Virus record (IMG/VR): IMGVR_UViG_3300048930_000249
Location: 1 to 44,078 of that record
Strand: one strand, 5' to 3'
Length of the DNA: 44,078 nucleotides
From: a virus
How positions within the stretch are numbered: the stretch's first letter is position 1; each line of letters starts with the position of its first letter. Shown piece after piece: positions 2,111 to 21,050 of this stretch. Made by a program: the position numbers and the translations under genes. Under the pieces are notes generated by a model. That model was not told the DNA's origin, did no database searches, and saw only the letters and a list, made by a program, of their open reading frames with translations.

Positions 2111-2682
2111 GTCATTGCCTCCTTCCGCGCGTTGATAAGTTCTGCCATGGCCGCATCGCTGCCGCCGGCGTCGGGGTGTCGGGTCTTCGCCAGTTCCTTG
2201 AACCGCGCCTCGATGTCGGCGCGACTATTTCGCTTGGGGTCGAGGTCCATCACTTCCCACCACGGCCGCTTCGGCTTGGCACCAGGGGGAGGGGGCAGGG
2301 CCGTGAAGCCTTTGAACGTGGCGCGCACCAGATGCAGCGTACCGTGGCGGAGCTCCGTGCGCCGGGCCTCGAGGACGTGGTGGATGGCTTGCAGATTCTC
2401 CTCGGCCGTCAGGTAGCGGTCGACGGGAATGCAGATCGACATCCCGTCCCAACTGAACCAGGCGGCGACGCCGGGATCTGGCGGGCGGTCGTTGCCCAGT
2501 GTGACGTTGCTGGACAGGACGATGTTCGACACCGCCTTGCCGGAATCGCGCCCGAAGGCTTCGATCGAGTGGCGTACGTTCTTGAGCGCGGCGGCCAATG
2601 TCGTTTTGAAACGGCTCTTCTCTCGGCACTTGCTGCGAGGAATGTGTTCCGGCCATTGCAGTGGATATGCCTGCGCAGTCAT
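2107..2682 (-). CDS. J-domain (DnaJ-like) phage protein
   Basis: A 191-aa protein with an N-terminal region of unknown fold (residues 1-130) and a C-terminal J-domain (about 140-190): PWWEVMDLDP, then FKELAKTRHPDAGGS with the HPD motif (169-171) that stimulates Hsp70 ATPase. Putting the J-domain at the C-terminus suggests a protein that recruits host DnaK to a client bound by the N-terminal part; this is inference. ATG at 2682 overlaps the parB-like stop (ATGA). The longer upstream extension is low-complexity and is rejected as start. Confidence 0.8.
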   Translation of the reverse strand: MTAQAYPLQWPEHIPRSKCREKSRFKTTLAAALKNVRHSIEAFGRDSGKAVSNIVLSSNVTLGNDRPPDPGVAAWFSWDGMSICIPVDRYLTAEENLQAIHHVLEARRTELRHGTLHLVRATFKGFTALPPPPGAKPKRPWWEVMDLDPKRNSRADIEARFKELAKTRHPDAGGSDAAMAELINARKEAMT

Positions 2683-4568
2683 GCTCGCCTCTGCGCCAGC
2701 TGCTCTTCGCCGACGGCCGCGGCGGCCGCAGCATCCGCCCACACATTGGAGCCCGGCCCTTTGTAGGACGGCGTGCGCAGCGGCTTCGGCAGCCAGCCCT
2801 TGGGTGTCAGCTCGCGCACCGCCATTTCCACCAGGTCCTTCTTCTTCTTCGACGGGGTCACGCCGGAAACCGCTGCCTCGCCCAAAGCGGCGGCCAGGCT
2901 CTCGCGCGGCATGCGCTTGAAGAACTCGGCGTCGGGCTGCCAGAACGCGGCAACATCGGGATCGAAGGCGTCGATGATCGGCCGCAGCGCATCAAGCATC
3001 GCGGCGTCGTACTTGAGCAACGGCGCGATGCTGAGGGCGATGGCCTGGTCGAGGTGCTCGCTCCCGGCAAGCGCGCCGAACACCTCGACGATCGCGCAGG
3101 CGTGCGGATCGTGCTGCAGATTGTCCATCATCTGGGCGTGCGCCGCGGCGACCTCTTTGCCAATTTCGGCAAACCGGCGCTGCGGAGCGTCCACAATGAA
3201 TCCCTCTGGCTTTGCGAACTCGCTGACGTTCATCAGCAAGGCCGCGGCCAGGCGCAGCGCCTTGGCTGGCGCCGCCATGATCGCCCATTGCATGGCATGG
3301 GTCATCGCCGTGGCCATCTCCGCCTGCAGCGCGCCGGTGAAATCCGCCTCGGCCTCCGTCTCGACGCTGCGCACCGGCGACGGGTCCTTGCCGCTGTCGC
3401 GCGCCGTCTGCTTCGAGGCCCTCGCCTCCTTCCTTGCCGCGGCAGGTTTCATCATGCCGTACGTGACGGTGATCTCGCTGTACTCCCGGCGCACCACCAC
3501 ACCGGATTTCTTCTTCTGGGCGTCGGTGAAGAAGTTGCCGGCGAGTTGCTCGAGCTCGGCCTTGGTGGCGTCCAGCTTGTCCTGCAGCTGCTCCTCGGCA
3601 TCGCGGTCCTCGGTCTTCCGCCATTCGGCGTCGAGCCGCTTGATTTCGGCCTTGAGCGCGTCCGCCCTGGCCCTCTGTTCCTTCGACAGGCTGCGCTTGC
3701 CCTCGGGTTTGATCCATGGCCAGCCATTGGTCTTGTGGGTGCGCACCTTGTCCATCTCGAAGACGACGAAGCCCCAACCCTCGTCGAGCCAAGCCTTCTC
3801 GTCGGCCTTCAGCTTCTGCTGGAACAGCTTTGTCAGGAGCTTGCCATCGGCCAGCCAGGCGTTGTTGGAGAACAGGTCCTCGTCCACGGCGCCGCCGGCG
3901 GCCCTGTAGGCCTCGATCCCGACATAGGCAGCCTCGGGCGAGTCTGCCGCGATGCGCGCCTTCGAGAACTCGTTCTTGATCTGCCAGCTCTTGCACACGC
4001 CCTGCTTCCAGAGCTTGAGCGCCTGGGCCGGATCAGGCAGCAGCGTGTAGGCCTGCGCATCCTCGAGCCCGATCTCACCCGCCTTGAGGCCTGCCACGAT
4101 CTCCTTCGGCAGCTTGCCGATGGCCAGCCGCTGGCGCACGCGGCGGAGTGGAATGCCGAAACGCGCGGCAATGTGCTCCGGGGTCATGCCTTGCGACACG
4201 AGGTCGGTGAAGTCCAGGGCCTCGTCCGCCGGGTGAAGGTCCATCCGGGTGATGACGGTGGCCAGGGACAGCGACATGGCCTCGGCATCGTCGAGCTCGC
4301 GGATGTAGGCCGGGACCGGGTGATCGTGCGGCAGCTTCCCCTGCTCGGCCAGGAGCTTCATGGCGCGCAGCCGGCGGCCGCCGTCGACCGGCTCATAGCC
4401 GCGCGCGGACGGCCGCAGCAGCAGCGGCTGGCCGAGCTCCTGCACGTCGATCGTGGCGGCGAGCTCGCCGACGTCCGTCTCGGTGTCGCGCCGGGCATTG
4501 ATCGCGGGGTTGTAGTAGATGTCGCTCAGCGCGACGTAATCGAGGCGGGAGGTGTCCTGTTCGGGCAT
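2679..4568 (-). CDS. Large ParB/RepB/Spo0J-like protein
   Basis: A 629-aa protein with an N-terminal ParB-like nuclease-fold domain: NARRDTETDVGELAATI, then EPVDGGRRLRAMKLL (the box II-type motif). An HTH region follows (MTPEHIAARFGIPLRRVRQR, about 140-160). The rest is a long helical part including a Lys/Glu-rich coiled coil (about 270-350) of unknown role. ATG at 4568 is chosen because the upstream extension does not resemble protein. No ParA-like ATPase is present, so plasmid-style partition is unlikely; gene regulation or DNA binding during early infection is more plausible. It is followed directly (ATGA) by the J-domain gene. Confidence 0.85.
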   Translation of the reverse strand: MPEQDTSRLDYVALSDIYYNPAINARRDTETDVGELAATIDVQELGQPLLLRPSARGYEPVDGGRRLRAMKLLAEQGKLPHDHPVPAYIRELDDAEAMSLSLATVITRMDLHPADEALDFTDLVSQGMTPEHIAARFGIPLRRVRQRLAIGKLPKEIVAGLKAGEIGLEDAQAYTLLPDPAQALKLWKQGVCKSWQIKNEFSKARIAADSPEAAYVGIEAYRAAGGAVDEDLFSNNAWLADGKLLTKLFQQKLKADEKAWLDEGWGFVVFEMDKVRTHKTNGWPWIKPEGKRSLSKEQRARADALKAEIKRLDAEWRKTEDRDAEEQLQDKLDATKAELEQLAGNFFTDAQKKKSGVVVRREYSEITVTYGMMKPAAARKEARASKQTARDSGKDPSPVRSVETEAEADFTGALQAEMATAMTHAMQWAIMAAPAKALRLAAALLMNVSEFAKPEGFIVDAPQRRFAEIGKEVAAAHAQMMDNLQHDPHACAIVEVFGALAGSEHLDQAIALSIAPLLKYDAAMLDALRPIIDAFDPDVAAFWQPDAEFFKRMPRESLAAALGEAAVSGVTPSKKKKDLVEMAVRELTPKGWLPKPLRTPSYKGPGSNVWADAAAAAAVGEEQLAQRRA

Positions 4569-4608
4569 TGGGCTGGTTCCGGTTGAGGGGATAGGGCGGC
4601 GGCCGTGG

Positions 4609-5433: not shown

Positions 5434-6020
5434 TTGCCACCGCCAACGGCAAAAGCGGGCATCGGCCCGACCTCGATCCGCAGCCGTTCGAAGCTGCGCA
5501 GGAAGTCTTCCTCGGATTTTTCTGAATTGCGCGGCTTGATGGCAAAGGGCGCAGCCTCGATGACGATCGGGCATGGGCCCTGCATCAAATCGCGCCATTC
5601 CGCCGCGAACACCGCCGCGTCTGCCGCTCGCACCCATGCTTCATCGCCCGACGACTCCAGGAGGCCGAACCCGAAGGCGTTCATGATGGCCACGTCGAGG
5701 CGATCCGCTATCCTCGTCACCAGGTCGAAGCTTGCATAGGCGGCGATCTCCCGGCGCACCGGATGTACGATGTCACCGAGGTAGGCCTCGTGCGCGTCAT
5801 GCAAGAGGCCCAACATCTGGACGCTGGGCGACGCCTTCTTCATGGCGAGAAAGCGGGCCACGTTCAGCGAGTGATCGGCGACGTTGACGGGCAGCCGTGT
5901 CGCACCGCAGAAGCGGTTGAGCCGGGACAGCGAGCACGCGATGTCCCGGATGTCGATCGACGCGGGATCCGGCGCGGCAAGCGACACCCTGCGGCCGGTA
6001 TAGGTCAGGACATGGTTCAT
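5430..6020 (-). CDS. HD-domain phosphohydrolase, YfbR-like
   Basis: A 196-aa metal-dependent phosphohydrolase of the HD superfamily. Visible metal-ligand motifs are the His of VADHSLNVARF (about 50) and LLHDAHEAYLGDI (HD about 74-75), followed by a downstream Asp in RAADAAV. The closest well-known relatives act as 5'-deoxynucleotidases (YfbR), so a role in adjusting the deoxynucleotide pool is likely but inferred. ATG at 6020 overlaps the stop of the upstream mini-gene. Confidence 0.85.
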   Translation of the reverse strand: MNHVLTYTGRRVSLAAPDPASIDIRDIACSLSRLNRFCGATRLPVNVADHSLNVARFLAMKKASPSVQMLGLLHDAHEAYLGDIVHPVRREIAAYASFDLVTRIADRLDVAIMNAFGFGLLESSGDEAWVRAADAAVFAAEWRDLMQGPCPIVIEAAPFAIKPRNSEKSEEDFLRSFERLRIEVGPMPAFAVGGGK

Positions 6021-6160
6021 GCACCGATCCCCGTGATCTCGTCGTCGTCGAGCTCATCGCGCTCGAGACGGTACAAGGTGCCAGCAAGCCACCCGGCCAG
6101 AAGGCCAAACAGCAGCGCGATTGCGCAGGCGAGATAGGGGTGATCCGCAATCAGCATCAT
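6017..6160 (-). CDS. 47-aa single-span membrane protein
   Basis: A short frame encoding MMLIADHPYLACAIALLFGL, then LAGWLAGTLYRLERDELDDD and a short tail. It has one transmembrane helix (about residues 8-28) and an acidic C-terminus. Stop overlaps the HD gene start (ATGA) and start overlaps the upstream stop (ATGA), so it occupies exactly the space between two real genes. Function unknown. Confidence 0.65.
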   Translation of the reverse strand: MMLIADHPYLACAIALLFGLLAGWLAGTLYRLERDELDDDEITGIGA

Positions 6161-6519
6161 GCGGCCTCGCTGCATGAAAACAGCCCGGGGCGGCGCTGCG
6201 CGGCGCGGAGGAAGGCTTCTTGAAAGTGACGATCGATCTCGTCTTCACCGAGGCCCAGCTGACGGAAGTCGGCGCGATGCACCATGCCAGAACGGATCGC
6301 CGCCTTCTCGATTGCGGTCGCCATGATGGCAACGATTGCCGCCGGCTTCAGCGTGATCTTGCCGATCCGTGCTGGCCGTGGCGCGGCCTTGAGGGCTGCC
6401 AGGTCGTAAGCATGCGCCAGATCGAGATGATGCGGGTTGATCGGTCCGTCGGTCGCCAGCGACAGTGAGGCCGCCGCCGAGAATCCGTCGAAGACCGGGA
6501 ACGGCAGCGCGCCCGTCAT
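6157..6519 (-). CDS. Hypothetical early phage protein (120 aa)
   Basis: A 120-aa soluble protein starting MTGALPFPVFDGFSAAASLS. The central part (RIGKITLKPAAIVAIMATAI) and the C-terminal half (DFRQLGLGEDEIDRHFQEAF) look helical. I recognise no domain. Start and stop both overlap neighbours by ATGA in the left operon. Confidence 0.65.
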   Translation of the reverse strand: MTGALPFPVFDGFSAAASLSLATDGPINPHHLDLAHAYDLAALKAAPRPARIGKITLKPAAIVAIMATAIEKAAIRSGMVHRADFRQLGLGEDEIDRHFQEAFLRAAQRRPGLFSCSEAA

Positions 6520-6917
6520 GACAGCACCAGCAGGATGTAAGCGACCGCTGCCAGGCTGAGCAGGGCTGCAGCGCAGCCGATATCGTCAGCAAGTGTGCCG
6601 GGGGTGGTGTAGACTCTGTCGCCGGAGGTATTGCCGCCGTCGTGGGCGCCATCCGTGCGCTCATTTAGGCGATCAAATTCAAACGACCACTTCGGCAGAA
6701 ATAGGCTGCGGGTTCGATCCGCGTGATCGGCAATTGCATTACAGACTTCGGCAAACCTTGGTTCGTCCGACCACTCCCCTGCACTCCGAAGTGCGTCGAC
6801 TGGAATGATCACCTTTACGTATCGCGGCCTGAACAACCGCTCGCAGGCCGAGGCAATGGTCGTGCGGAGCGTGCGGATCAGCGCCTTGGCGCGGTGGTGT
6901 AGGGAAATGCGGTGCAA
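6516..6917 (-). CDS. First gene of the left operon, C-terminal membrane anchor
   Basis: A 133-aa protein starting with TTG (LHRISLHHRAKALIRTLRTT) behind a strong GGGAGG ribosome site 5 nt upstream, which decides the start. A basic N-terminus and soluble middle lead to one hydrophobic helix at the C-terminus (ALLSLAAVAYILLVLS). It is the first gene after the left promoter/operator, the position of lambda N, but shows no Arg-rich antiterminator motif clear enough to claim that role. Confidence 0.65.
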   Translation of the reverse strand: MHRISLHHRAKALIRTLRTTIASACERLFRPRYVKVIIPVDALRSAGEWSDEPRFAEVCNAIADHADRTRSLFLPKWSFEFDRLNERTDGAHDGGNTSGDRVYTTPGTLADDIGCAAALLSLAAVAYILLVLS

Positions 6918-6943
6918 TGTTGCCTCCCATTGATTTGGGAAGC

Positions 6944-6997
6944 ACAGTAATGCGTATTTAAAAACGCGTCAAGGATAATGCGCGTATTATTAAACGC
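6944..6997 (-). promoter_or_regulatory. Left early promoter (PL-like) with two operators
   Basis: On the minus strand, TTGACG (6972-6967) and TACTGT (6949-6944) are separated by 17 bp, a good -35/-10 pair for the leftward operon. Two copies of the inverted repeat GCGT-N8-ACGC lie here: 6952-6967, exactly in the promoter spacer, and 6982-6997, just upstream. The same palindrome sits in the spacer of the rightward promoter at 8147-8162, so these are very likely repressor operators. Confidence 0.75.
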
Positions 6998-7006
6998 ATA
7001 GTCAGA

Positions 7007-7312
7007 TCAGCAGTTGACGCCGATTTTGGCGGCGGCTGAGCAGCGCATCGCCACAGCGCTGTCGATTTCCTCGACTGTAAAGACGAGAAACCTTTCGCCA
7101 TTGCTGCACACCGCGCTGATCGCGCCATCCGGTAACCGCTGAGCTACCGAAATCGAGGGGCAAACACCTGTTCCAAAATTGTCTTGGATAACAGTTTTGG
7201 CCACTTTCGCGGATTTACCTGCAGGAGCGGGACCAATGGATATTTGGGCGACCGCTGGAAGCATACCGAGCAAGAAGCAAACTGTGGATGTGGTTACAAC
7301 GTTTTGGCGCAT
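7007..7312 (-). CDS. Small secreted protein in the rex position
   Basis: A 101-aa protein with a clear N-terminal signal sequence (MRQNVVTTSTVCFLLGMLPA, VAQ before the likely cleavage) and a mature part with four Cys (VCPSIS, VCSNGE, MRCSAA, GVNC). ATG at 7312 follows TAGGAG. It lies downstream of the repressor on the same strand, so it should be made in the lysogen, like lambda rex genes. A periplasmic or secreted lysogenic-conversion factor is plausible. No family recognised. Confidence 0.7.
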   Translation of the reverse strand: MRQNVVTTSTVCFLLGMLPAVAQISIGPAPAGKSAKVAKTVIQDNFGTGVCPSISVAQRLPDGAISAVCSNGERFLVFTVEEIDSAVAMRCSAAAKIGVNC

Positions 7313-8433: not shown

Positions 8434-8708
8434 TGGTCTGGTTTCGCGACAGTTCATTCTCACGCGGCTGCCTAACTTGCCGGCCGCTGCATTTTTTTTG
8501 CCCGAAACCACAACCTGCCACGACTCACAGGGCAGTATCGGTTGGCGGTCAGGTGCAGCATGCGTGCACAATTCTCCGCGAGGAGATGGTGTGGCCCCGA
8601 GCCGTTTCGGGGAAGTTCTGCAGCGATGCAGCGCGGCCCTTCCTGGGCGTTTCCTCCCTTAACTTGGGGGGGGGTTTGGCCCCGCCCGTTTTCTCAGCTG
8701 CGCGTCAG
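8434..8708. other. Non-coding stretch with hairpins
   Basis: No convincing gene is seen. Frames that stay open here have Cys/Arg/Pro-rich shadow composition. An 8-T run lies near 8491-8498. A hairpin CCCCGA-N5-TCGGGG lies near 8597-8613. A G-run followed by GGCCCCGCCCGTTTTC (about 8667-8695) could form a weak terminator between the Cro-like gene and the converging gene at 8709. Confidence 0.4.
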
Positions 8709-9234: not shown

Positions 9235-9741
9235 TTGCAATATCCCGCCAGCCACCCGAGATTGCCGCTCGAATTGAAGGCCTACTTCCGCGATCTGGTC
9301 ACCGCTTGCGGCGGACCGAAGCGCGCGGCCGAATTGGTCGGCGCGCAGCAGTCGCACATCAGCGAGGCCATGGGTGCACACAATCCCGAGCGCTGGCCGC
9401 GCCTCGATCATGTGGCTCTTCTCGAGCGCGAGTGCGGTCAGCCCATCATCACGGCCGCACTGGCCGATCGCAGCGGCTACGCGCTCGCGGCCGTCGCCGC
9501 ATCCGAGACCGTGGCATCTCCGCTTGGGCGTCTCTGCGAGATCGTCAACCAGGTGCGCGACGTCGAGTGCGGCATTCTGAGCGCCATGCAGGACGGCCAG
9601 CTCTCCGCTGCCGAGCGCCGCGACATCCGCCGCCAGGCGCAGGAGGCGATCGCTGCCCTCAACGCCCTGTGCGCCGATCTGCTTGACCCCGCTTCCGTCG
9701 GCGGCGTCGCCCGCGTCGTCATTCCGGGGGCGAGCTCATGA
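9235..9741 (+). CDS. HTH regulator, CII-like position
   Basis: A 168-aa protein beginning at TTG (LQYPASHPRLPLELKAYFRD), with AAGGGA about 10 nt upstream. An HTH is visible (ACGGPKRAAELVGAQQSHIS, about residues 24-43), followed by WPRLDHVALLERECGQPIIT. The C-terminal half is helical (LSAAERRDIRRQAQEAIAAL). The type is common in alphaproteobacterial prophages just after the Cro-like gene and may act like CII. The TTG start is the weakest point; no in-frame ATG exists nearby. The stop overlaps the GcrA-like start (ATGA). Confidence 0.75.
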   Translation: MQYPASHPRLPLELKAYFRDLVTACGGPKRAAELVGAQQSHISEAMGAHNPERWPRLDHVALLERECGQPIITAALADRSGYALAAVAASETVASPLGRLCEIVNQVRDVECGILSAMQDGQLSAAERRDIRRQAQEAIAALNALCADLLDPASVGGVARVVIPGASS

Positions 9742-10532
9742 GAGACTTTGACTGGACCGAGGAACGCGTCGAATCCCTGATCGCCCTGGTAAAGGAAGGC
9801 CGATCCGCAACCGAGATCGCCAATACACTGGGCTGCGGCTCGCGCAACGCCGTGTGCGGCAAGGTCATGCGGTTGCGCGATGCCGGTCGTCTCGACGGCC
9901 CGCGCACATATCAGAAATCCGGCACCTACACGCCGGCCGCGCGCGGCCACAGATGCCCGGGGCTTGCCCATGTGCCGCTCATCCAGGCGCGGCTCGGAGA
10001 AGGCCGGAACGATCGCGAGATCGCCGACGAAATCGGTGTCAAACCGGATGACATTCGCTACGTCCGCCGCGTCAATGGCCTGCAGGCGAACACCAAGGCG
10101 CTGGCGCCACCCAGCTATGCCGCCGATGTGACGAAGCTCGTGGCTGCCGGAAAGACCGACCGTGAAATCGGCGCCGCGCTTGGCATCACGCTCTGGCAGG
10201 CGCGCAACGAGCGGCGCCGGCAGGGGCTGGCCGCGCCCGCGGCTGACAAGCAACGGGCGGTGACGACAATCATCAAGGGTGATCCCGGAGCCAAGGTCGC
10301 CGCCGTCTTTGCCGAGGGCTTCATGGGGCAACGCGCGCGCGTCGATCTCATCGGCCTCGAGTCTGGCCTCTGCCGCTTTCCGATCGACCAGCAGAATGGT
10401 CCTGTACGCTACTGTGGCGACCTGACGGCCGAAGGGCAGACCTACTGCGCGCATCATGCGGCGCGCTGCTACATGCCCACCCAGCGGATGAAGCCGCTGA
10501 ACCCCAGCCACGTCTATTCCGCGAGGCGCTGA
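9738..10532 (+). CDS. GcrA-family regulator with extra HTH repeats
   Basis: A 264-aa protein. The N-terminus (WTEERVESLIALVKEGRSAT, EIANTLGC, residues 6-46) and the C-terminal domain (GLCRFPID, YCGDL, TYCAHHAARCY, residues 207-246) match GcrA, the alphaproteobacterial cell-cycle regulator that binds sigma70-RNA polymerase and prefers methylated GANTC promoters. It is longer than cellular GcrA (about 170 aa) because two further HTH-like repeats, about 80-115 (NDREIADEIGVKPDDIRYVR) and 129-163 (TDREIGAALGITLWQARNER), lie between. ATG overlaps the preceding stop. A methyltransferase gene follows two genes downstream. Redirection of host transcription is the likely role. Confidence 0.85.
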   Translation: MRDFDWTEERVESLIALVKEGRSATEIANTLGCGSRNAVCGKVMRLRDAGRLDGPRTYQKSGTYTPAARGHRCPGLAHVPLIQARLGEGRNDREIADEIGVKPDDIRYVRRVNGLQANTKALAPPSYAADVTKLVAAGKTDREIGAALGITLWQARNERRRQGLAAPAADKQRAVTTIIKGDPGAKVAAVFAEGFMGQRARVDLIGLESGLCRFPIDQQNGPVRYCGDLTAEGQTYCAHHAARCYMPTQRMKPLNPSHVYSARR

Positions 10533-10732
10533 TGCCCACCATTCACGAGAAGCTCAAGCTCGCCTACGTCAGCCTTCACCCCGACGACGGGCTGATGCTG
10601 ACCGTGACAACCGCGCGCGGCGACCAGAAATTTGACATGCAGCTCACCCCGAAGATGACTGCCATGCTGCTTAATCAGCTCACGCAGGGTGCGCGGGACG
10701 CTCTCAGCAATATGGAGAAGTGGCCATCATGA
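10532..10732 (+). CDS. Small early phage protein (66 aa)
   Basis: A 66-aa protein starting MPTIHEKLKLAYVSLHPDDG and ending ARDALSNMEKWPS. Its ATG overlaps the GcrA-like stop by one base (TGATG) and its stop overlaps the next start (ATGA), so it is part of the coupled right operon. No domain recognised. Confidence 0.7.
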   Translation: MPTIHEKLKLAYVSLHPDDGLMLTVTTARGDQKFDMQLTPKMTAMLLNQLTQGARDALSNMEKWPS

Positions 10733-11562
10733 GCGCGCTCCGCCCGCTTGAGAAGCCGGAGGTGAACCTCGCCCAGCCGAAGCCGGCGGGCAAGCCGCCA
10801 AAGCTGGATTTCCTGCCTCTCGCGAAGCTGCGGATCGACGACACGTACCAGCGCACGATCGAACGCAAGGGCTTGGCCACCATCGTCCGGATCTGCAACG
10901 AGTTTGACTGGAACCGCTTCGCGCCGCTGATCGTGGCGCGGATTGCCGGAAAGGACGAGCACTACGCCATCATCGACGGCCAGCACCGGGCGACCGCGGC
11001 GCTCCTGCGGGGCTTCGACCTGGTGCCCTGCGCGATCGTCAACGCCTCCGCCATGGAACAGCCCGCCATTTTCGCGGCGGTCAATGGCAACGTGACGCCG
11101 ATCACCATCCTGCAGCTGTTCAAGGCGGCGCGGGCTTCCAAGGCCGAATGGGCGATGGAGATCGACGGGGTCTGCAGGGACGCTGGCCTGGTGCCGCTGG
11201 TCTATCCCAAACCGAAGAGCGTCATCAGGCCGTTCGAGACCATGGCGATCGGCACCCTGCGCAGGAACATCGCCCGCTTCGGTGTGGTGGACGTGACCAA
11301 GGCGTTGAAGCAGGTCGCGCGGCAACCCGATGCGGCGGACCCCGGCTTCTGGACCTCTGGCGCGATCGACTACGCGGTCGCCGAATGGCGGACGGAACAG
11401 GGCAAGCGTCAGCAACCGGAACGGCCAGCGGATGGCGTGCCACTCGCCCAGCGCATCATGGAGTTGAGAAAGCGCGGCCACACCCGCTTCGCCATCCAGT
11501 CTGCGCTCGGCTGCAAGCTGTCCGAGATCGAGGCCGCCCTCAGCGCCGGTGGCAAAGCATGA
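10729..11562 (+). CDS. ParB-like nuclease-fold protein (DGQHR type)
   Basis: A 277-aa protein. After a short Pro/Lys-rich N-terminus, FLPLAKLRIDDTYQRTIERK and AIIDGQHRATAALLRG (about residues 82-97) are the motifs of ParB/sulfiredoxin-fold phage and plasmid proteins of the DGQHR group. The remainder is helical with a C-terminal HTH-like end (RGHTRFAIQSALGCKLSEIE). ATG 10729 overlaps the preceding stop; a GTG three codons upstream is possible. It probably binds or nicks nucleic acid or hydrolyses nucleotides; activity not established. Confidence 0.8.
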   Translation: MSALRPLEKPEVNLAQPKPAGKPPKLDFLPLAKLRIDDTYQRTIERKGLATIVRICNEFDWNRFAPLIVARIAGKDEHYAIIDGQHRATAALLRGFDLVPCAIVNASAMEQPAIFAAVNGNVTPITILQLFKAARASKAEWAMEIDGVCRDAGLVPLVYPKPKSVIRPFETMAIGTLRRNIARFGVVDVTKALKQVARQPDAADPGFWTSGAIDYAVAEWRTEQGKRQQPERPADGVPLAQRIMELRKRGHTRFAIQSALGCKLSEIEAALSAGGKA

Positions 11563-12209
11563 CGCAGATCTGCACGGGGTTCAGATCCAGCCGCTTCGAG
11601 GCCGCCGACTCGCTCGACGACTTTCCGACGCCGCCATGGGCGGGCCGGGCTCTCATCGAGCATGTGCTCAAGAGATACCCCACACGGAATTGGATCATGA
11701 GCAAGCGCGCGACGCTGTGGGAACCTGCAGTCAACAGGGGCTTTCTGCTACGCGGTCTCGCCCCGTATTTTGGCAAGACGCTGGCGAGCGATGTGTTCGA
11801 CTACGGGATCGGTGCCGCCAGGTTCGATTACATCGATACGCCTGCGCCGGAGCATGTCGACTTCATCATCACGAACCCGCCGTTCAACCTCGCCCACGCT
11901 TTCATCCACAAGGCCCTTTCGGAGTCGGCTGGCGGATGTGCGTTCTTGGTGCGCACGTCGTTTCTCGAAGGCGTCAACCGCTACGATTCGCTTTTCAGCC
12001 TCCGCCCTCCGACCTTTGTGGCGCAGTTCTCCGAGCGCGTGCCGATGGTGAAGGGCCGGTGCGATCCCGAGGCGTCGACAGCAACCAGCTACTGCTGGGT
12101 CGGGTGGCTGAAAGGGTCTGCGAAGCAAAGCAGCATGATGTGGATTCCGCCCTGCCGGCGCGAGCTCGAGCGTGCCGGTGATTACGATTTGCCGGAGGGC
12201 GCACAATGA
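11559..12209 (+). CDS. DNA N6-adenine methyltransferase-like protein
   Basis: A 216-aa protein with a Rossmann-type methyltransferase core. LWEPAVNRGFLLRGL (about residues 53-67) is a motif I-like SAM-binding segment and FIITNPPFN (102-110) is the NPPF catalytic motif of N6-adenine methyltransferases. A DFPTPPWAG segment near the N-terminus is typical of phage versions. ATG overlaps the preceding stop (ATGA). No restriction enzyme is adjacent, so protection of phage DNA or alteration of host GANTC-type regulation with the GcrA-like protein is more likely. Specificity cannot be read from sequence. Confidence 0.82.
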   Translation: MTQICTGFRSSRFEAADSLDDFPTPPWAGRALIEHVLKRYPTRNWIMSKRATLWEPAVNRGFLLRGLAPYFGKTLASDVFDYGIGAARFDYIDTPAPEHVDFIITNPPFNLAHAFIHKALSESAGGCAFLVRTSFLEGVNRYDSLFSLRPPTFVAQFSERVPMVKGRCDPEASTATSYCWVGWLKGSAKQSSMMWIPPCRRELERAGDYDLPEGAQ

Positions 12210-12421
12210 CGATCGACAAGCGCTGCATCTCGTCGGGCTGCTCGGATTATCCGCTCTTCGGGTTCGGCATGCCGTCCAAGGGTCTCATGCGCTGGGCCTG
12301 CAAGAGCCATCGCGACATCATCTGGAACGCTGCGACGCCCGCACCGGGAGAGGGCGGGCCGGGTGACGTCTCCCGCCTGGTCCCGCCTTCTCCACCAGCT
12401 GTGCAGGGGAGGCTGCTCTGA
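12206..12421 (+). CDS. Small Cys-containing phage protein (71 aa)
   Basis: A 71-aa protein starting MTIDKRCISSGCSDYPLFGF. Cys at 7, 12 and 32 with a nearby His (KSHRD) could bind zinc. The C-terminus is Pro/Gly-rich. Start and stop overlap neighbours (ATGA, TGATG). No known function. Confidence 0.65.
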   Translation: MTIDKRCISSGCSDYPLFGFGMPSKGLMRWACKSHRDIIWNAATPAPGEGGPGDVSRLVPPSPPAVQGRLL

Positions 12422-12696
12422 TGCCGCAGGCTGCAACCCGGCAATCGACCTATTCCGAGATCCTGGCCTGTCCGGTGTTCCGCGAGGGCTATGAGGAAAT
12501 TTGGCGGGCCGAAGCCACGGCGATCGACGTTCGCTGGAGCGATGAGGAACAGCTCTCCTATGAGCGAGGTCGCCAGTTCGGCCTTTATGTGCTGACCTCG
12601 GAGAGCCAGCGGGTGCCTCTGCAGAAAGGCTCCATGCCCCACCCGCGCGCCGTGGTGCTGCTGATGATGGCCTTCCGCGGAGGCGACGTGCTGTGA
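12421..12696 (+). CDS. Small early phage protein (91 aa)
   Basis: A 91-aa protein starting MPQAATRQSTYSEILACPVF, with WSDEEQLSYERGRQFGLYVL in the middle, an ordinary soluble helical protein. It fits between overlapping neighbours (TGATG at the start, GTGA at the end) upstream of the primase, suggesting a replication-associated accessory role, but no family is recognised. Confidence 0.65.
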   Translation: MPQAATRQSTYSEILACPVFREGYEEIWRAEATAIDVRWSDEEQLSYERGRQFGLYVLTSESQRVPLQKGSMPHPRAVVLLMMAFRGGDVL

Positions 12697-13895
12697 GCCG
12701 TGATCCTGCATTCGAGGAATGGATAGAGGAAGCGCGCGGGTTGCCGATCGTGCGCGCCCTCGATCTCGTCGCGCCGCACCACGCCATCTCGCGCAAGACC
12801 CGCTTCGTCGGCCCGTGCCCGGGGTGCGGCGGCACCGACAGGTTCTCGCTGAACATCAAGAAGAACATCTTCTGGTGCCGCAAGAGCGCAGAAGGCGGCG
12901 ATGCAATCGCGCTTGCGCGCCATGTCCATGGCTGCGCGTTCCTTGACGCCGTCGAGCTGCTCACCGGCCGGCCCGCTCCCGGGCGCACCGTTTCCGAGGA
13001 AGAGCACCAGGCGCGCGCGCGCCGCGTCGCCGAGCTCGAGGAAAAGCGCAAGGCCGAGGCCCAGCGGATCGCCACCGAAGAAAACGAGTTTCGCTCCCGC
13101 GAGATCGACCGCGCCCGCAAGATATGGAAGGCAGCTGGCCCGATCGAAGGCTCGGTCGCCGAGGCCTATCTCCAGCACCGCGGCGTCACGGCGCCGAAAG
13201 GTGCCAAGCTGCGCGCGGCCTCCGAGCTGCCCTACTGGCACAACATCGGCGGCGAGTGGAAGTCGATCTATGCCGGCCCAGCCATGGTCGCGGCCATCCA
13301 GGGGCGGGACAACCGCTTCATCGGGTGCCATATCACATGGATCGACGCCAGGCTCTCCACGCGCTCAGGCAAGGCGCAGATCGTGCATCCCGCGACTGGC
13401 GAGATCCTCGATGCCAAGAAGGTGCGGGGCTCGCAGAAGGGCGGGCATATCCATCTGGGTGGCGTCGCCGTCACGCCACGGCGCTTCGTGGTGGGCGAGG
13501 GGATCGAGACCGTGCTGTCGGTTCAGGTGGCGGAGAGCGCCGCGGGGAGGTCAGGGTTCACGCTTTATTGGTCGAGCGTCAACCTGCACAATCTCGGCGG
13601 CAAGAGTGCCGGCAGCGTCCCGCATCCAAGTCTGACGATCACCGACAGCAAGGGGCGAACCCGGGTGCAGCGCGTGCCGGGGCCCGACCCCGATCTCAAC
13701 GACACTGCCGTGATCGCACCGCCTGTCGAGGCCGACGACATCCTGCTGTTGGGCGATGGCGACAGTGACCGCTTCACCACGCGAAACGTGCTGTGCCGCT
13801 TTGCCGCCCGCTGGGATCGGTTGGGCCGCACGATCCGCGCGGCATGGGCGGATGAGGGCTCGGATTTCAACGACATGCTCAGGGGCGCCGCATGA
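12693..13895 (+). CDS. Toprim primase with CHC2-type zinc finger
   Basis: A 400-aa DNA primase. The N-terminal zinc-finger region has CPGCGGTDRFSLNI (C42, C45) and FWCRKSAEGGD (C62); the usual fourth ligand after C62 is not obvious. A charged helical linker (100-145) precedes the Toprim domain with GEGIETVLS (268-276) and a metal-site LLGDGDSDR (351-360). It probably makes RNA primers and works with the SF3 helicase encoded next. GTG at 12693 overlaps the previous stop (GTGA); the stop overlaps the helicase start (ATGA). Confidence 0.9.
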   Translation: MSRDPAFEEWIEEARGLPIVRALDLVAPHHAISRKTRFVGPCPGCGGTDRFSLNIKKNIFWCRKSAEGGDAIALARHVHGCAFLDAVELLTGRPAPGRTVSEEEHQARARRVAELEEKRKAEAQRIATEENEFRSREIDRARKIWKAAGPIEGSVAEAYLQHRGVTAPKGAKLRAASELPYWHNIGGEWKSIYAGPAMVAAIQGRDNRFIGCHITWIDARLSTRSGKAQIVHPATGEILDAKKVRGSQKGGHIHLGGVAVTPRRFVVGEGIETVLSVQVAESAAGRSGFTLYWSSVNLHNLGGKSAGSVPHPSLTITDSKGRTRVQRVPGPDPDLNDTAVIAPPVEADDILLLGDGDSDRFTTRNVLCRFAARWDRLGRTIRAAWADEGSDFNDMLRGAA

Positions 13896-15547
13896 CCGAA
13901 CCGCGGGAGCCTCACCTGCGCATCGTCTCGACGATCGACAGTGCCGAAACGCTGGCCGCTGGATCCGGTCCCGCACCCTCTATGAAGGGCAGCGGGAAGG
14001 ATAGTCCCGGGCGGGAGTTGCCGCCGTCGGGGGGTGATCGAGGGGGAGCGGGGGGCGGCGGCGTTGAGTGGAGCCTCGACATTTCCTGCGCCTGGCTGCC
14101 GCGCACGGATCTCGGCAACGCGGAGCGGTTCGTGAAGCGACACGGAAAGGACTTCCTGTTCGTGCCGGAATGGGGCTGGCTCGCGTGGGACGGCAAACGC
14201 TGGAACGCCTCAGAGGCAGACGCCATCCTCGCCCGGGCGGTGCACGAGACGATCCGCGCCATCGCCCAGGAGGCCGATGCGCTCGCCGGCACGCGCGACG
14301 ACGTGATGATCGACCCCGTCAAGCGGGTGCTGCTCTCCGACAAACTGCGCGGCTGGTGTCTTGCTTCGCAGAGTGCCGCGCATATCACGGCCGTCGCCCG
14401 GCTCGCCCAGTCCTATCTCTCAGCACAAAGCAGTTCCTTCGATGCGGAGGCGACCGCCCTCAACGTGCTGAACGGCACCCTGCGTTTTGCCAAGTCGGAC
14501 CACGCCGACTACGTGATCTTCCATCCGCACCGTCGCGAGGACCGGATGACCAAGCTGGCGCCGGTGGAGTATGATCCGGAAGCGACGTGTCCGTCCTACG
14601 ACAAGTTCCTAGCCCGTGTGCAGCCTGACGAACTGATGCGGCGGCATCTGCATGCCTGGGGCGGGCTCTCGCTCACCGCCCTGCAGGTGGCGCGCCTGGC
14701 GTTCTGGTACGGCACCGGCCGCAATGGCAAGTCAACGCTGGTCGACGCTTGGTCGCACGTGCTCGGTGACTATTCCCAGACCATTCCGATCGAGAGTTTT
14801 CTCGACCAGGGCCGCTCAAGGCGCGGCGGCGAGGCGTCTCCTGATATCGCGTCGCTGCCCGGTGTGCGCTGCCTGCGCACCTCGGAGCCTGAAAAGGGCG
14901 CAAAGCTGGCTGAAAACCTCGTCAAGCTGGTGACCGGCGGCGAGCCGTTGCGCGCACGGCACCTGAACCGGGATTTCTTCGAGTTCCGCCCCACGTTCAA
15001 GCTCACCATGCAGGGCAACTATCGGCCCGAGGTGCGCGGCACGGATGAAGGCATCTGGGCCCGCATCCTGCTGGTGCCGTGGACGGTCATGATTCCTGCA
15101 GAGGAGCGCGACACCGGCTTGCCGCTCAAGCTGCAGGCCGAAGTCTCGGGGATCCTCAACCGGCTGCTCGACGGGCTTCGCGACTATCTCGACAACGGCC
15201 TGCTGCCGCCGCACCAGGTGCTGACGGCGACCGCCGAATATCGTGACGACTCCGACCCGATCGGCCGCTTCCTCAACGAGTGCACGGTGAGCTGCGATCC
15301 GCCGCCGCCGGACCGGCCGCAGGAAGAACGCCGCGAATCGGGATCTGAGATGTACCGGATCTATGTCGCCTGGGCCAAGGCCTATGGCGAGCGACCATGG
15401 GGCACCAAGGCCTTCTCCCGTGGCCTTCAGGATCACGGCGTGCAGCGGGTCAAGAACTCCGGGATCTTCTACCGGCACATCCGGCTCACCAAGACCGCGG
15501 CGGACTTCGCAGGGCAGGATTATGGGGACACAGACCACGAAAAGTGA
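13892..15547 (+). CDS. SF3/D5-type phage replicative helicase
   Basis: A 551-aa helicase of the P4-alpha/D5 family. A Gly/Pro-rich N-terminus (1-58) is followed by a D5_N-like region (WGWLAWDGKRWN near 94-105). The AAA+ SF3 core has Walker A GTGRNGKST (274-282), then a B-motif region CLRTSEPEKGAKL and sensor-like KLTMQGNYRPEVRGTDEGIW. A C-terminal winged-helix-like end (GSEMYRIYVAWAKAYGERPW) may bind DNA. P4 alpha unites primase, helicase and origin recognition; here primase is a separate upstream gene. The stop is only 5 bp before a dense repeat array, the likely origin. Confidence 0.9.
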   Translation: MTEPREPHLRIVSTIDSAETLAAGSGPAPSMKGSGKDSPGRELPPSGGDRGGAGGGGVEWSLDISCAWLPRTDLGNAERFVKRHGKDFLFVPEWGWLAWDGKRWNASEADAILARAVHETIRAIAQEADALAGTRDDVMIDPVKRVLLSDKLRGWCLASQSAAHITAVARLAQSYLSAQSSSFDAEATALNVLNGTLRFAKSDHADYVIFHPHRREDRMTKLAPVEYDPEATCPSYDKFLARVQPDELMRRHLHAWGGLSLTALQVARLAFWYGTGRNGKSTLVDAWSHVLGDYSQTIPIESFLDQGRSRRGGEASPDIASLPGVRCLRTSEPEKGAKLAENLVKLVTGGEPLRARHLNRDFFEFRPTFKLTMQGNYRPEVRGTDEGIWARILLVPWTVMIPAEERDTGLPLKLQAEVSGILNRLLDGLRDYLDNGLLPPHQVLTATAEYRDDSDPIGRFLNECTVSCDPPPPDRPQEERRESGSEMYRIYVAWAKAYGERPWGTKAFSRGLQDHGVQRVKNSGIFYRHIRLTKTAADFAGQDYGDTDHEK

Positions 15548-15552
15548 CCCGT

Positions 15553-15812
15553 GCCTCCCGCCGGGAGGCTGGCGTTTTCTGCTTCCCGTTCTCAAACCTT
15601 TGAAAACAAAGGCAACGGGAGGCACGGGAGGCACGGGAGGCAGTTTTGCTATGAAGCCTCATGGGAAAAATATTTCCATGAGATGGAACCCCCGATTTGC
15701 TTCCCGTTCCTCCCGTTCCATTTCAACCTTTTGATACAGCGGAGTATTCTCGTATGTTTATCCTCCCGTCTGCCTCCCGTCTGCCTCCCGTTAGAAAGAA
15801 TGATCCTCCCGT
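15553..15812. repeat. Iteron array, candidate phage replication origin
   Basis: Twelve copies of a 9-mer close to GCCTCCCGT (or its complement ACGGGAGGC) lie in 260 bp. A 17-bp palindrome occupies 15553-15569. Further copies are at 15581-15589; three perfect head-to-tail copies at 15615-15641; two at 15699-15716; three with 11-bp period at 15761-15791; one at 15804-15812. Between the clusters is AT-rich sequence with an inverted repeat (15660-15680). Iterons plus AT-rich DNA right after the helicase gene is the typical look of a phage origin. The last copies lie inside the next gene's 5' end. Confidence 0.65.
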
Positions 15813-16386
15813 GGTGGATTATAGAAGGGAAATCACGGCCTGGGCCGCTGTGGTGTGGGCCTATGCCGATGAGCTCGTGCTGGCGGCATCATCGGTCGGC
15901 GGCTCGAATTTCCCATCGCCGGCGCTGGCAATGAGCGGGCTCGGCCGCGAGCGCATCAGCGGCGGCCTCATCAATGGCTGGTATGAGCCCCACCCTGATG
16001 CGCTGTTGATCCATGCAAAGCTTTCGGAATGGTTCGTCCATGACAGCTATGGCCTGTGCCAGGTCATGGCGCATGCTGAACGTCGGAAGCGTCTTCCGCC
16101 TGAGATATCCCTGCCGCGGGTCAAGGTGCTGCCGGTTTATGATCGTCAGGGCAATGTGCTGATCGAGCGCCGGCGCGCGCACCGCAGCGCGAGGGTGATC
16201 ACGGAATACTGCGTCATCGATTATGAAGGCATCGATCCTCGCCAGGCAGACCGCCGTGAGCAGGCATGGCGCGATATGCATGCGATGTTCATTGCCTTCC
16301 TCGATGTGATGCAGGGCTTTTCGCTTGCGAAGTGGAAGGTCACGGGCCGGGGCTTGACGAATGTCGGCGAATCATTGACAAGGTGA
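15754..16386 (+). CDS. Hypothetical phage protein after the origin
   Basis: A 210-aa protein. ATG 15754 follows GGAG 9 nt upstream, and the first ~20 residues are encoded by iteron copies (Pro/Arg-rich). A GTG at 15811 is the alternative start. The conserved-looking part begins VVDYRREITAWAAVVWAYAD and contains MSGLGRERISGGLINGWYEP. The C-terminal half is basic. It sits where lambdoid phages keep late regulators, between replication genes and terminase, but no known motif supports that. Confidence 0.65.
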   Translation: MFILPSASRLPPVRKNDPPVVDYRREITAWAAVVWAYADELVLAASSVGGSNFPSPALAMSGLGRERISGGLINGWYEPHPDALLIHAKLSEWFVHDSYGLCQVMAHAERRKRLPPEISLPRVKVLPVYDRQGNVLIERRRAHRSARVITEYCVIDYEGIDPRQADRREQAWRDMHAMFIAFLDVMQGFSLAKWKVTGRGLTNVGESLTR

Positions 16387-16450
16387 TCCATTGTTAGCGC
16401 CTTGCGCCTGTCAGCATGACCTGCTGCCGGGCGCTTTGCATTTGAGGCCA

Positions 16451-16855
16451 ATGCCTTACGCCCCCAGAACGTTCCGTCCGCCATGGCTGCAGTCGAATGC
16501 CGAGCTGCCTCGCTTTGCCCGTCATCAGCCTGAACGCCGTGCATCGGCACGCGAACGCGGTTATGACACCAGGTGGGAAAAGGCACGGCGCACATGGTTC
16601 GGTCGCGATCCGCTTTGCGTTTGCTGCGTGGCCCATGGCGCTGTTGAGCCTGCCTCCGTGCTGGATCACGTCGAGCCCCACAAGGGCGACATGGCCAAAT
16701 TCTGGAACACCTCGAACTGGCAGGGCTTGTGCGAGTGGTGCGACAAGAACCTGAAACGCTCGGTCGAGAACAACTGGCTCAAGGGTCGCGCGACAGTTGC
16801 CGAACTGAGGCTTGACCGCCTCGTGCCTGGCTGGGTCCATCCCGGCGACAGGTAG
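16451..16855 (+). CDS. HNH endonuclease
   Basis: A 134-aa HNH nuclease. The basic N-terminus is followed by YDTRWEKARRTWFGRDPLCV, a CxxC pair (CVCC), then LDHVEPHKGD with the metal-binding His and KFWNTSNWQGLCEWCDKN containing the Asn and second CxxC. ATG 16451 follows GAGG. HNH proteins encoded just upstream of terminase genes assist terminase cutting in HK97-type phages; that role is inferred from position. A homing role is less likely. Confidence 0.88.
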   Translation: MPYAPRTFRPPWLQSNAELPRFARHQPERRASARERGYDTRWEKARRTWFGRDPLCVCCVAHGAVEPASVLDHVEPHKGDMAKFWNTSNWQGLCEWCDKNLKRSVENNWLKGRATVAELRLDRLVPGWVHPGDR

Positions 16856-16962
16856 GGGGGCGGTCAAATCTTGCCGGCCGTGTCTTTTGGGACCGGCGGG
16901 GTAACATCACATTCATTTCCGCGTAAATCCCGAATAATTTTCGGCTCCGAGGAGAAGATCGC
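16856..16962 (+). other. Intergenic region before terminase, possible packaging site
   Basis: A 107-bp gap between the HNH gene and the small terminase. It has an imperfect GC-rich hairpin (GCCGG ... CCGGC, about 16873-16898) followed by AT-richer sequence and the GAGGAG ribosome site of terS. cos sites of HK97-type phages lie at this position, but no cos can be recognised by sequence alone. Confidence 0.3.
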
Positions 16963-17535
16963 ATGCCACGTGGCAGGCGGGCGCTGCCCGACGAAGTGAA
17001 GGCTCTCAAAGGAAACCCGGGTAAGCGCCGGCTCATCCTCGACCAGGTCGATTCCGAGGGCAGTCTCGTCAAGGCACCGTCCTACATCACGACCGTGATG
17101 GAGCGCGAGATATTCAAGCGCGTTGCCGCGCAGCTCTCGAGCGTGCGCTTCATCAAGGCGACCGACAGCGACGCACTCGCCCGCTGGGCGGTGTGGATGG
17201 CCAAGTGGGTCGACATCAAGAAGCGGCTCTCCGCCAAGAAGGCCGACGTCTACTACGAGACAAAGTCGAAGCACGGCAAGATGCTGCGCGCCCACCCGCT
17301 CTATGCGTCGATGATCCAGATCGACAAGCAGCTGATGGCGCTGGAGGACAGGATCGGCCTCAACCCGACCAGCCGTCAGGCCATCCTGCGCGGCCTCATC
17401 AATGCGCCGTCGCTCCCGGCGGGTTCGCTCTTCGGCGATGACGTCGAGAAGCCGCAGGCGCCGGTCGTGTCGGATGCCGACCGCAAGGAAGTGGCAGCGA
17501 ACCTCGACGGGCCGCTCGGGTTCCTGAAGCACTGA
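16963..17535 (+). CDS. terS: Terminase small subunit, P27 family
   Basis: A 190-aa P27-type small terminase: MPRGRRALPDEVKALKGNPG followed by KRR is the characteristic N-terminus, then helical oligomerisation segments (YITTVMEREIFKRVAAQLSS, HPLYASMIQIDKQLMALEDR) and LNPTSRQAIL. It recognises viral DNA and regulates the large subunit during packaging. A GAGGAG ribosome site precedes ATG 16963. The stop overlaps the large-subunit start (TGATG). Confidence 0.93.
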   Translation: MPRGRRALPDEVKALKGNPGKRRLILDQVDSEGSLVKAPSYITTVMEREIFKRVAAQLSSVRFIKATDSDALARWAVWMAKWVDIKKRLSAKKADVYYETKSKHGKMLRAHPLYASMIQIDKQLMALEDRIGLNPTSRQAILRGLINAPSLPAGSLFGDDVEKPQAPVVSDADRKEVAANLDGPLGFLKH

Positions 17536-19094
17536 TGGACTACTACTTCGACGAGGCAATCGCGAAGAGGGCCGTCGAGTTCTTCCCGCGGTTCCTCCGC
17601 CTGACGATGGGCGAGTGGGCCGGGCGACCGTTCCACCTGGCGCCGCACCAGGCCGAGCATATCGCGCAGATCTTCGGCTGGCGCCGCAAGGCCGACGGCC
17701 AACGCCGCTATCGCCGCGTGAGATGGTGGGAGCCGCGCAAGAACGGAAAGACGGAACTGGCGGCCGGCGTTGGCCACCTGCTGACGATCGGCGACGGGGA
17801 GCCAGGCGCCCAGGTGTTCAGCCATGCCGTCGACGCCAAGCAGGCCTCGATATCGTTTGAGCGCGGCGCGGCCATGGTGCAGTTTTCCGACGAGCTGTCG
17901 CGGATCTACGAACAGACGAAGGCGGGCCTCTTCTGCCCCGGCCTGATGTCGGTGTGGCGGCCGCTGTCTGGCGTGCCGAAAGGCAAGCACGGCCTTAACG
18001 CCCACGGGCTGATCGGCGACGAGGCGCACGAATGGCCGGATGCCCGGCTGCACACCTACCTGATGCAGTCGATGGGAGCCCGGCGGCAGCCGCTCGACTT
18101 CGTCATCTCGACGGCGGGAGAGCGTGGAGGCTACGGCTGGGAGCTGTGGAACACGAGTGAGAAGATCAAGGCGGGGATTCTCGAGGACCCGGAGACCTAC
18201 GTCGTGATCTACGCGGCGGACCCGGAGGACGACTGGACCAGCCCCGAGACCTGGGCGAAGGCGAACCCGAACCTCGGGCGCTCGATCAAGCTGGAGTACC
18301 TGCAGGACCAGTGCAGCCAGGCGCGAGAGAACCCGCGGCTCGAGAACGACTTCAAGCGCTACCACCTCAATCTGTGGGTGGAGCAGGCGGTGCGCTGGCT
18401 GGCCATGGATCACTGGAAGCAGTGCACAGCGAACCCGGCCGACAAGGACCTGTGGCGGTCCTTCGAGAACGAACTGGCCGGGCGGCCCTGTTTCGGCGGC
18501 CTCGACCTGGCGCAGACCCGCGACATCAACGCGCTCGTCTGGTGGTTCCCGGCAACCGAGGACCGGCGGGCAAGGACGCTCTGCAGGTTCTACGTGCCCG
18601 AGGACAGCGTCTCGCTCCGCACGCGCCGGGACCGGGTGCCCTATGACCAATGGGTGCGCGACGGCGTCATCACCGCGACGCCCGGCAACGTGACGGACTA
18701 CGAGTTCATAAAGGAGCAGGTGTTCCAGGACGCGGCAAGGTTTCAGGTGCAGGGGCTGGCGATCGACCGCTGGAACGCGACGCACCTGGCCAACCAGCTG
18801 CAGTCGGAAGGGCTGCCGGTCGTCCTGTTTGGGCAGGGGTTCGCCTCGATGGGCGCGCCCACCAAGGAGCTCGAGCGCCTCGTCATGGGGCACGGGTTCG
18901 ACCACGGGAACCATCCGGTCCTGACGTGGATGGCATCGAACGCGGCCATCACGGCGGACCCGGCGGGCAACATCAAGCCTGCGAAAGACCGCGCAACTGA
19001 AAAGATCGACGGGATCGTGGCGATGATTATGGCTCTGGGTCTGGCCGAGGCTCACCTGCCCGGTTCCGGCGTGTCGTTCTGGGAAGCGGCCTGA
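17535..19094 (+). CDS. terL: Terminase large subunit
   Basis: A 519-aa packaging motor (Terminase_1 family). The N-terminal ATPase has a Walker A-like RKNGKTELA (68-76) and Walker B GLIGDEAHEW (158-167, Asp162/Glu163), followed by DFVISTAGERGG as coupling motif. The C-terminal RNase H-like nuclease begins FGGLDLAQTRDINALVWWFP, whose Asp residues are metal ligands, and ends RATEKIDGIVAMIMALGLAE. Full family length, no breaks. It is the strongest phylogenetic marker in the window for placing the phage. Confidence 0.96.
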   Translation: MDYYFDEAIAKRAVEFFPRFLRLTMGEWAGRPFHLAPHQAEHIAQIFGWRRKADGQRRYRRVRWWEPRKNGKTELAAGVGHLLTIGDGEPGAQVFSHAVDAKQASISFERGAAMVQFSDELSRIYEQTKAGLFCPGLMSVWRPLSGVPKGKHGLNAHGLIGDEAHEWPDARLHTYLMQSMGARRQPLDFVISTAGERGGYGWELWNTSEKIKAGILEDPETYVVIYAADPEDDWTSPETWAKANPNLGRSIKLEYLQDQCSQARENPRLENDFKRYHLNLWVEQAVRWLAMDHWKQCTANPADKDLWRSFENELAGRPCFGGLDLAQTRDINALVWWFPATEDRRARTLCRFYVPEDSVSLRTRRDRVPYDQWVRDGVITATPGNVTDYEFIKEQVFQDAARFQVQGLAIDRWNATHLANQLQSEGLPVVLFGQGFASMGAPTKELERLVMGHGFDHGNHPVLTWMASNAAITADPAGNIKPAKDRATEKIDGIVAMIMALGLAEAHLPGSGVSFWEAA

Positions 19095-20326: not shown

Positions 20327-20334
20327 GAGCCATT

Positions 20335-21048
20335 ATGGACAGAATCGAAATCAAGCTGGCGTCGGATGACTTCGACGCCAAGACCGGAGAATTTGCGGGC
20401 TACGGCGCCATCTTCGGAAATCTCGACAGCTATGGCGATGTGATCGCCAAGGGCGCGTTCAAGAACTCCCTGCGCGAGTGGGAAGATCGTGGCAAGTATC
20501 CACCTATGCTCTTGCAGCATGGCGGCGGCGGATTTGGCGGCTCGGCCGACGACATGTTGCCGGTCGGTCAGTGGACGCAGATGGAAGAAAACGCCAAGGG
20601 TCTCAAGGTTTCCGGCAAGTTGTTTGCCCTCGGCACCGAGCGCGGCCAGTACATCTATGAGGGCATGAAGTCGGGCGTTCTGGACGGCCTGTCAATCGGG
20701 TTCCGCGCCAAGAAGTTCACCCGCGGCACCAAGCCGACGGAGCCCATGCGGACGCTGGAGGAAATCGACCTGATGGAGGTTTCCATCGTGACGTTCCCGG
20801 CAAATGGCAAGGCCCGCGTGAGCAACGTGAAATCATTTGATGCCCGCTTCTGGCGGGCAATCGAGGCCGAATTGAAGGCCGATCCTGAACTGAATTTGTC
20901 GAGCGCCAAGGCAGTGAGTGCGGTGGCGATCCTCAAAAAGCATCTTCGTGAGGAAGGTGAAGCAACGCCCGATCTGTCCCGCGAGGTGGACGAGAAGGCA
21001 CTGGCGGATGCACTCCGCCGCAACCTCACCATTCTAGGAGTATCCTGA
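20335..21048 (+). CDS. Prohead protease, HK97 family (U35)
   Basis: A 237-aa maturation serine protease. GEFAGYGAIFGNLDSYGDVI, the histidine of LLQHGGGG and the GVLDGLSIGFRAKKF segment with catalytic Ser are family hallmarks, and LMEVSIVTFPANGKARV completes the fold. It cleaves the scaffold part of the capsid protein and itself. TAGGAG precedes ATG 20335. The C-terminal ~60 aa (SSAKAVSAVAILKKHLREEG) are helical and may be an interaction tail. Confidence 0.93.
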   Translation: MDRIEIKLASDDFDAKTGEFAGYGAIFGNLDSYGDVIAKGAFKNSLREWEDRGKYPPMLLQHGGGGFGGSADDMLPVGQWTQMEENAKGLKVSGKLFALGTERGQYIYEGMKSGVLDGLSIGFRAKKFTRGTKPTEPMRTLEEIDLMEVSIVTFPANGKARVSNVKSFDARFWRAIEAELKADPELNLSSAKAVSAVAILKKHLREEGEATPDLSREVDEKALADALRRNLTILGVS

Positions 21049-21050
21049 CC

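Follow-up and report, generated by a model that had tools for sequence, protein, structure and literature searches.

A phage GcrA-family protein with three helix-turn-helix units encoded in one operon with a putative GANTC methylase

Introduction

In the alphaproteobacterial cell cycle, GcrA and CcrM form the textbook pair of reader and writer. Caulobacter crescentus GcrA (PF07750; structures 5yiv, 5yix and 7ye1) is a 173-aa protein in which an N-terminal DNA-binding domain and a C-terminal sigma-interacting domain are joined by an unstructured linker, residues 46-107 (PMC7403470). GcrA orthologues prefer methylated GANTC for binding (PMC3667746). GcrA is already known from phages (PMC3556154; PMC6630229), as phiCbK gp222, gp5 of Agrobacterium phage Atu_ph08 and a protein of Brucella phage EF4. 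Phage GANTC methylases are also known. The product of PhiLM21_p027, from Sinorhizobium phage PhiLM21, has GANTC specificity and is unrelated in sequence to CcrM (Decewicz et al. 2017, PMC5537653), a convergence that was described in the same study, where phage methylases of this kind were found to adjoin replication genes.

Here we describe a locus in a virus record of 44,078 bases, analyzed over its whole length and referred to below as the window. Its GcrA-family protein resembles Caulobacter GcrA in the two terminal domains, but it is 264 aa long, carries two folded helix-turn-helix (HTH) units where the Caulobacter protein has its linker, and is encoded in a phage early operon. It is also akin to the three phage-encoded GcrA proteins, whose descriptions mention neither added HTHs nor an operon with a GANTC methylase. 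The methylase of the window shares with PhiLM21_p027 the NPPF motif and a position just before replication genes; unlike the window, the PhiLM21 stretch 9757-22356 has no annotated GcrA gene. CcrM, the cellular GANTC methylase, probably has the same target as the window methylase and is unrelated to it in sequence. The tandem HTH region shows a weak fold likeness to Cbp1 (2lvs) and to ArdK, which acts on direct repeats, with poor superposition (rmsd 11-14 A), and both lack the sigma-interacting domain that the window protein has. The open-licence literature yielded no description of GcrA and a GANTC methylase in one phage operon, nor of a multi-HTH GcrA. Within the literature searched, the three-HTH form, the operon that joins GcrA to a GANTC methylase and a junction element described below therefore appear to be new.

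The phage and its genome

The window carries genes for an integrase, an S24-type repressor, a primase, a D5 helicase, TerS and TerL, an HK97-type capsid protein and a lysozyme, and is therefore that of a temperate tailed phage. The phage is probably one of Alphaproteobacteria, where almost all relatives of its methylase are found. Elsewhere in the window are a further ParB-like protein, larger than that of the operon described below, which has ParB_N and ParB HTH domains (2679-4583, minus strand), and a 717-aa protein made up largely of AGSYAFTGTDASLEYGREV-type repeats (37726-39879). A further stretch, at 8629-8702 on the plus strand, matches the alphaproteobacterial small RNA mmgR (RF00519), as does 4343-4416 of the related viral contig L003, at 46 and 53.9 bits against a gathering threshold of 41. 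The match lies in a non-coding region that is 88% identical between the two phages and in which a GACTC, some 107 bp before the small RNA, is conserved; it may represent a phage-borne copy of a host small RNA.

The three-HTH GcrA protein

The product of the gene at 9738-10532 (plus strand) passes the PF07750 cut-off with E=3.5e-23. Residues 5-53 (HTH1, 9750-9896) match the methyl-GANTC-reading DNA-binding domain of Caulobacter GcrA (phmmer to 5yiu and 7ye1), and residues 203-254 (10344-10499) separately match its sigma70-interacting domain (phmmer to 5yix_B, E=0.0029), so both domains that define membership in GcrA are present. Foldseek superposed HTH1 on 5yiv, GcrA with methylated DNA, with a TM score (target) of 0.92, an rmsd of 0.7 A and 53% identity, and the C-terminal unit on the complex of GcrA and sigma domain 2 (5yix), with a TM score (target) of 0.76 and an rmsd of 2.1 A. 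Its recognition segment, SRNAVCGKVMRL, closely resembles TRNAVIGKVHRL of Caulobacter. The protein scores 69.8 bits with NF050816, the equivalog model of the cell-cycle GcrA, for which the cut-off is 280. The likenesses to Caulobacter GcrA suggest that the protein would bind DNA in a methylation-dependent manner and, judging by its fold, sigma70. The GcrA Pfam model also scored above its cut-off in a control genome, that of the archaeon Sulfolobus acidocaldarius.

Evidence for the two additional HTHs came from structure prediction. An AlphaFold2 model built on an alignment of 14 sequences has tri-helical units at residues 8-48, 74-113 and 128-161, with pLDDT mostly 80-95. HTH2 (residues ~74-115; 9957-10082) comprises helices 74-87, 92-99 and 103-113, with pLDDT 79-92 over the block, and HTH3 (residues ~128-163; 10119-10226) comprises helices 128-136, 141-148 and 152-161, with pLDDT 86-95 and a match to HTH_23 at E=2.5e-4. 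Residues 57-70 and 173-197 are disordered in the model, and the arrangement of the domains relative to one another is undefined (pTM 0.33). HTH2 and HTH3 are more similar to each other than expected by chance: their score is 48, the mean after shuffling is 20, and none of 2000 shuffles reached the observed score; the likeness of HTH1 to HTH2 (p=0.002) and to HTH3 (p=0.04) is weaker in the same test. The preliminary description of this DNA had proposed a GcrA-like protein with an N-terminal HTH, a C-terminal domain of polymerase-interacting type and two HTH-like repeats inserted between them. Pfam, phmmer and Foldseek agree on the terminal domains, and the structure prediction places the two extra HTHs where the description had put them.

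The insert sets the protein apart from other GcrA proteins, in that the stretch between the terminal domains measures 154-157 residues in the window family and 23-93 in about 60 other GcrA open reading frames. The three-HTH insert was found in none of 385 alphaproteobacterial genomes, and a scan of genome contigs with the three-HTH alignment gave no match. A tblastn search of annotated phages returned no relative of the window protein, and its matches in plasmids cover the N-terminal domain only. A GcrA-family protein of another contig, L243 (6676-7470), unrelated to the window family, has two GcrA-type HTHs with a spacing of 162 residues; HTHs therefore seem to have been gained by GcrA proteins at least twice. 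Other architectures were seen in passing. In L063, a 487-aa open reading frame (5567-7027) that starts at the end of a methylase gene contains about seven tandem GcrA-like/HTH_23 units, and open reading frames of 67-124 aa in L221, L229-L233, L235, L241 and L242, some of them possibly cut by contig ends, match the GcrA sigma-interacting domain without a DNA-binding domain.

The methylase

The gene at 11559-12209 (plus strand) encodes an N6-adenine DNA methyltransferase of the PhiLM21_p027 family (phrog_799, E=9e-47), with NPPF at residues 106-109. Homology to PhiLM21_p027, whose gene was confirmed in the PhiLM21 sequence record, extends over the full length, with 53% identity over 207 aa. The catalytic NPPF and the residues of motif I are conserved across 66 members of the family. 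The predicted structure (pLDDT 90, pTM 0.87) has M.TaqI as its best match among DNA-methyltransferase folds, and the protein has no match at E<=1 to N6_N4_Mtase (PF01555), the family of CcrM. The relationship to PhiLM21_p027 suggests that the window methylase is GANTC-specific, and since that relative has been published as such, a new target motif, which the preliminary description had raised as a possibility, is unlikely for the methylase. HTH2 and HTH3 would be the place for any new specificity. The idea of a paired writer and reader fared better: homology supports it well, in that the nearest characterized methylase modifies GANTC and HTH1 superposes on a GcrA bound to methylated DNA, so that the two proteins probably share GANTC as a target.

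The operon and its relatives

From 9235 to 15547, the genes are joined by eight consecutive overlaps of 1-4 nt. The operon opens with a CII-like (Phage_CP76) transcription activator (9235-9741, plus strand; PF06892, E=1.5e-10; phrog_101, E=2.4e-19), which overlaps gcrA by 4 nt. Between gcrA and the methylase gene lie a conserved 66-aa orphan (10532-10732, plus strand), which L003 and L004 have in the corresponding position and which matches no family, and a 277-aa ParB-like protein of DUF6551/ParB_N fold (10729-11562, plus strand; phrog_1033, E=2.2e-15; PF20188, E=6e-5, below the cut-off). After the methylase come two small genes and, at 12693-15547 on the plus strand, a primase/Toprim protein and a D5-type helicase (PF23639, Toprim_3 and D5_N), which belong to the same operon with a 4-nt overlap. 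The overlaps thus place the methylase in the coupled operon of GcrA, as had been suggested, with two genes between them rather than directly after it.

The three-HTH GcrA and this gene order recur in four other viral contigs, L003, L004, L005 and L006. L005 fills the methylase slot with a divergent protein (31% identity) that belongs to the same PHROG. L003 also has a 102-aa open reading frame (6810-7118), inserted after the ParB-like gene and before the methylase, that looks winged-helix-like by eye and has no Pfam or PHROG match.

The early-late junction

At the end of the early genes, directly before the HNH-terminase block, lies a conserved composite element, TTGAC-N10-GAATC-N-TTGACAA (16354-16381, plus strand). 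The GAATC (16369) abuts a perfect TTGACA, from which the other TTGAC copy is displaced by exactly 21 bp in the upstream direction. The exact 23-bp core GCGAATCATTGACAAGGTNATCC occurs in four of 2.9 million viral contigs, and only in the four that have the three-HTH GcrA; the longest identical stretch of DNA shared by the window and the L005 contig, 38 bp in length, includes it. The spaced motif TTGAC-N10-GAATC-N-TTGAC is found in seven contigs, the window included. Two of these, L262 and L263, are too short to reveal whether a three-HTH GcrA is present, and the gene that overlaps the element is 62% identical in the former and 34% in the latter. Among the 385 genomes the motif was not enriched, with one forward match and three matches to the reversed pattern. 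The genes downstream of the element differ between contigs while the element stays.

Coding constraint contributes to this conservation, because the element overlaps the end of a gene (15697-16386) for a 229-aa protein of no known family that is conserved in phages with the three-HTH GcrA. The gene ends in ESLTR, spelled GAA TCA TTG ACA AGG, which has a probability of 1.3e-5 by the codon usage of the window; coding alone is therefore insufficient to explain the element. The occurrence in L263, considered as evidence that the DNA is conserved where the reading frame differs, was set aside, since the other frame ends in a similar peptide, LTVSEESLTKR, and an indel or assembly error is possible.

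We infer that the element is a candidate target of the three-HTH GcrA and a candidate late promoter element. It is centered on GANTC, which is scarce in the window, with 44 sites against 207 +/- 13 expected from dinucleotide shuffles and about 100 by a higher-order estimate. Because these phages are related, the shared block is not independent evidence for a link to GcrA. A competing explanation, which concerns the link between protein and element and leaves the identity of the genes untouched, is that the element is a Q-like site of the 229-aa protein, or a late promoter and terminator for unmodified RNA polymerase. In every contig, the element and the 3' end of the 229-aa gene overlap. The element also accompanies homologues of that gene into L262 and L263 and is followed by a terminator-like hairpin (16396-16446, plus strand) that is kept with changed sequence (folding z of -2.6 in the window, -4.0 in L178 and -6.1 in L254). 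No clear -10 hexamer was found 16-18 bp after TTGACA, and the hairpin starts about 25 bp downstream; the element could therefore serve termination or antitermination. The 229-aa protein, on the other hand, matches neither Pfam nor PHROG and gives no hint of kinship to antiterminators, and the element has a GANTC at its center in a window where that site is scarce. We regard this explanation as a serious one, if somewhat doubtful.

Proposed mechanism and alternatives

Our working model, which we hold tentatively and at slightly less than even confidence, is that the three-HTH protein is a methylation-gated, sigma70-binding activator of GcrA type for the late genes of the phage itself, made early together with a GANTC methylase. 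The domain anatomy, the operon, the family membership of the methylase and the conservation of the element at the DNA level are observed, whereas methylation-dependent binding, sigma binding, the GANTC specificity of this particular methylase and the action of the protein on the element are inferred. The activator would be produced from the early (replication) operon along with the methylase. HTH1 would most likely read methylated GANTC, the C-terminal domain would hold sigma70-RNA polymerase, and HTH2 and HTH3 would contact further DNA, giving the protein a preference for phage sites, a likely one being the composite element where the early genes give way to the late ones. Under limiting host CcrM, the phage methylase would maintain GANTC methylation on phage DNA as it replicates fast, and late transcription would therefore be switched on only from methylated phage DNA. 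More speculative, and in our estimate unlikely, is a fully self-contained phage circuit in which the methylase writes GANTC and GcrA reads TTGAC-N10-mGANTC-N-TTGAC, one HTH recognizing the mark and the two mutually similar HTHs the paired TTGAC half-sites, such that the switch from early to late genes is gated by methylation of the phage's own promoter.

The preliminary description had suggested takeover of the host cell-cycle program, and such a role has been proposed for the phiCbK homologue gp222 (PMC3556154). The phage GcrA would activate host promoters with methylated GANTC, such as those of replication genes, while the methylase imposes full methylation, and the host would be held in a favorable state. 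HTH1 and the sigma domain are close to those of host GcrA, and the characterized homologue of the methylase has the specificity of CcrM. The two extra HTHs, however, suggest a specificity beyond the host motif, and a nearer target is available in the phage element at 16354, so that we consider takeover rather unlikely. Because the candidate target lies in the phage's own junction, and because the structural operon of a Brevundimonas prophage shows GcrA-dependent expression (PMC7987155), regulation of the phage's genes is no less likely than host takeover.

It is also conceivable, and to our minds decidedly unlikely, that there is no functional pair: the methylase would protect phage DNA or mimic CcrM for replication control, the GcrA-like gene would be a separate regulator, and the two would merely share the early operon. 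Placement in the replication module is typical for such methylases (PMC5537653), and they are common without a nearby GcrA, which was lacking within 5 kb in 64 of 80 viral and 79 of 80 genomic methylase loci; the pairing is thus not obligate. In the opposite direction, 24 of the 64 viral loci recovered with a GcrA motif have a methylase of this family within 10 kb, a figure biased upward by a query that derived from GcrAs located close to methylases. Anchored scans for an unbiased estimate of the association covered 4 primase loci and 10 terminase loci, too few for statistical control, and the terminase-anchored loci contained neither GcrA nor methylase. Against independent functions stand the conservation of the order in five contigs, the retention of the slot in L005 despite the divergence of its methylase, and the direct adjacency of the two genes in L070 and in L123, a Pseudorhizobium tarimense contig; in these two unrelated phage or prophage loci, the GcrA-family gene stops 2-13 bp short of the methylase gene. 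Finally, a dominant-negative or decoy protein that turns off host cell-cycle genes in competition with host GcrA, for sigma70 or for GANTC, would be compatible with the retention of both interaction domains, yet nothing specific favors inhibition over activation, and we consider it very improbable.

Implications

Phages were known to carry either the reader or the writer of this mark; here, a reader and a probable writer are encoded in one operon, and the reader is enlarged by two DNA-binding units. With a conserved element that holds a methylation site where early genes meet late ones, the phage may run an epigenetic switch of its own. Why alphaproteobacterial phages mimic CcrM is a long-standing question that can now be tested directly: through its methylase, the phage may license a promoter of its own for the GcrA that it also encodes.
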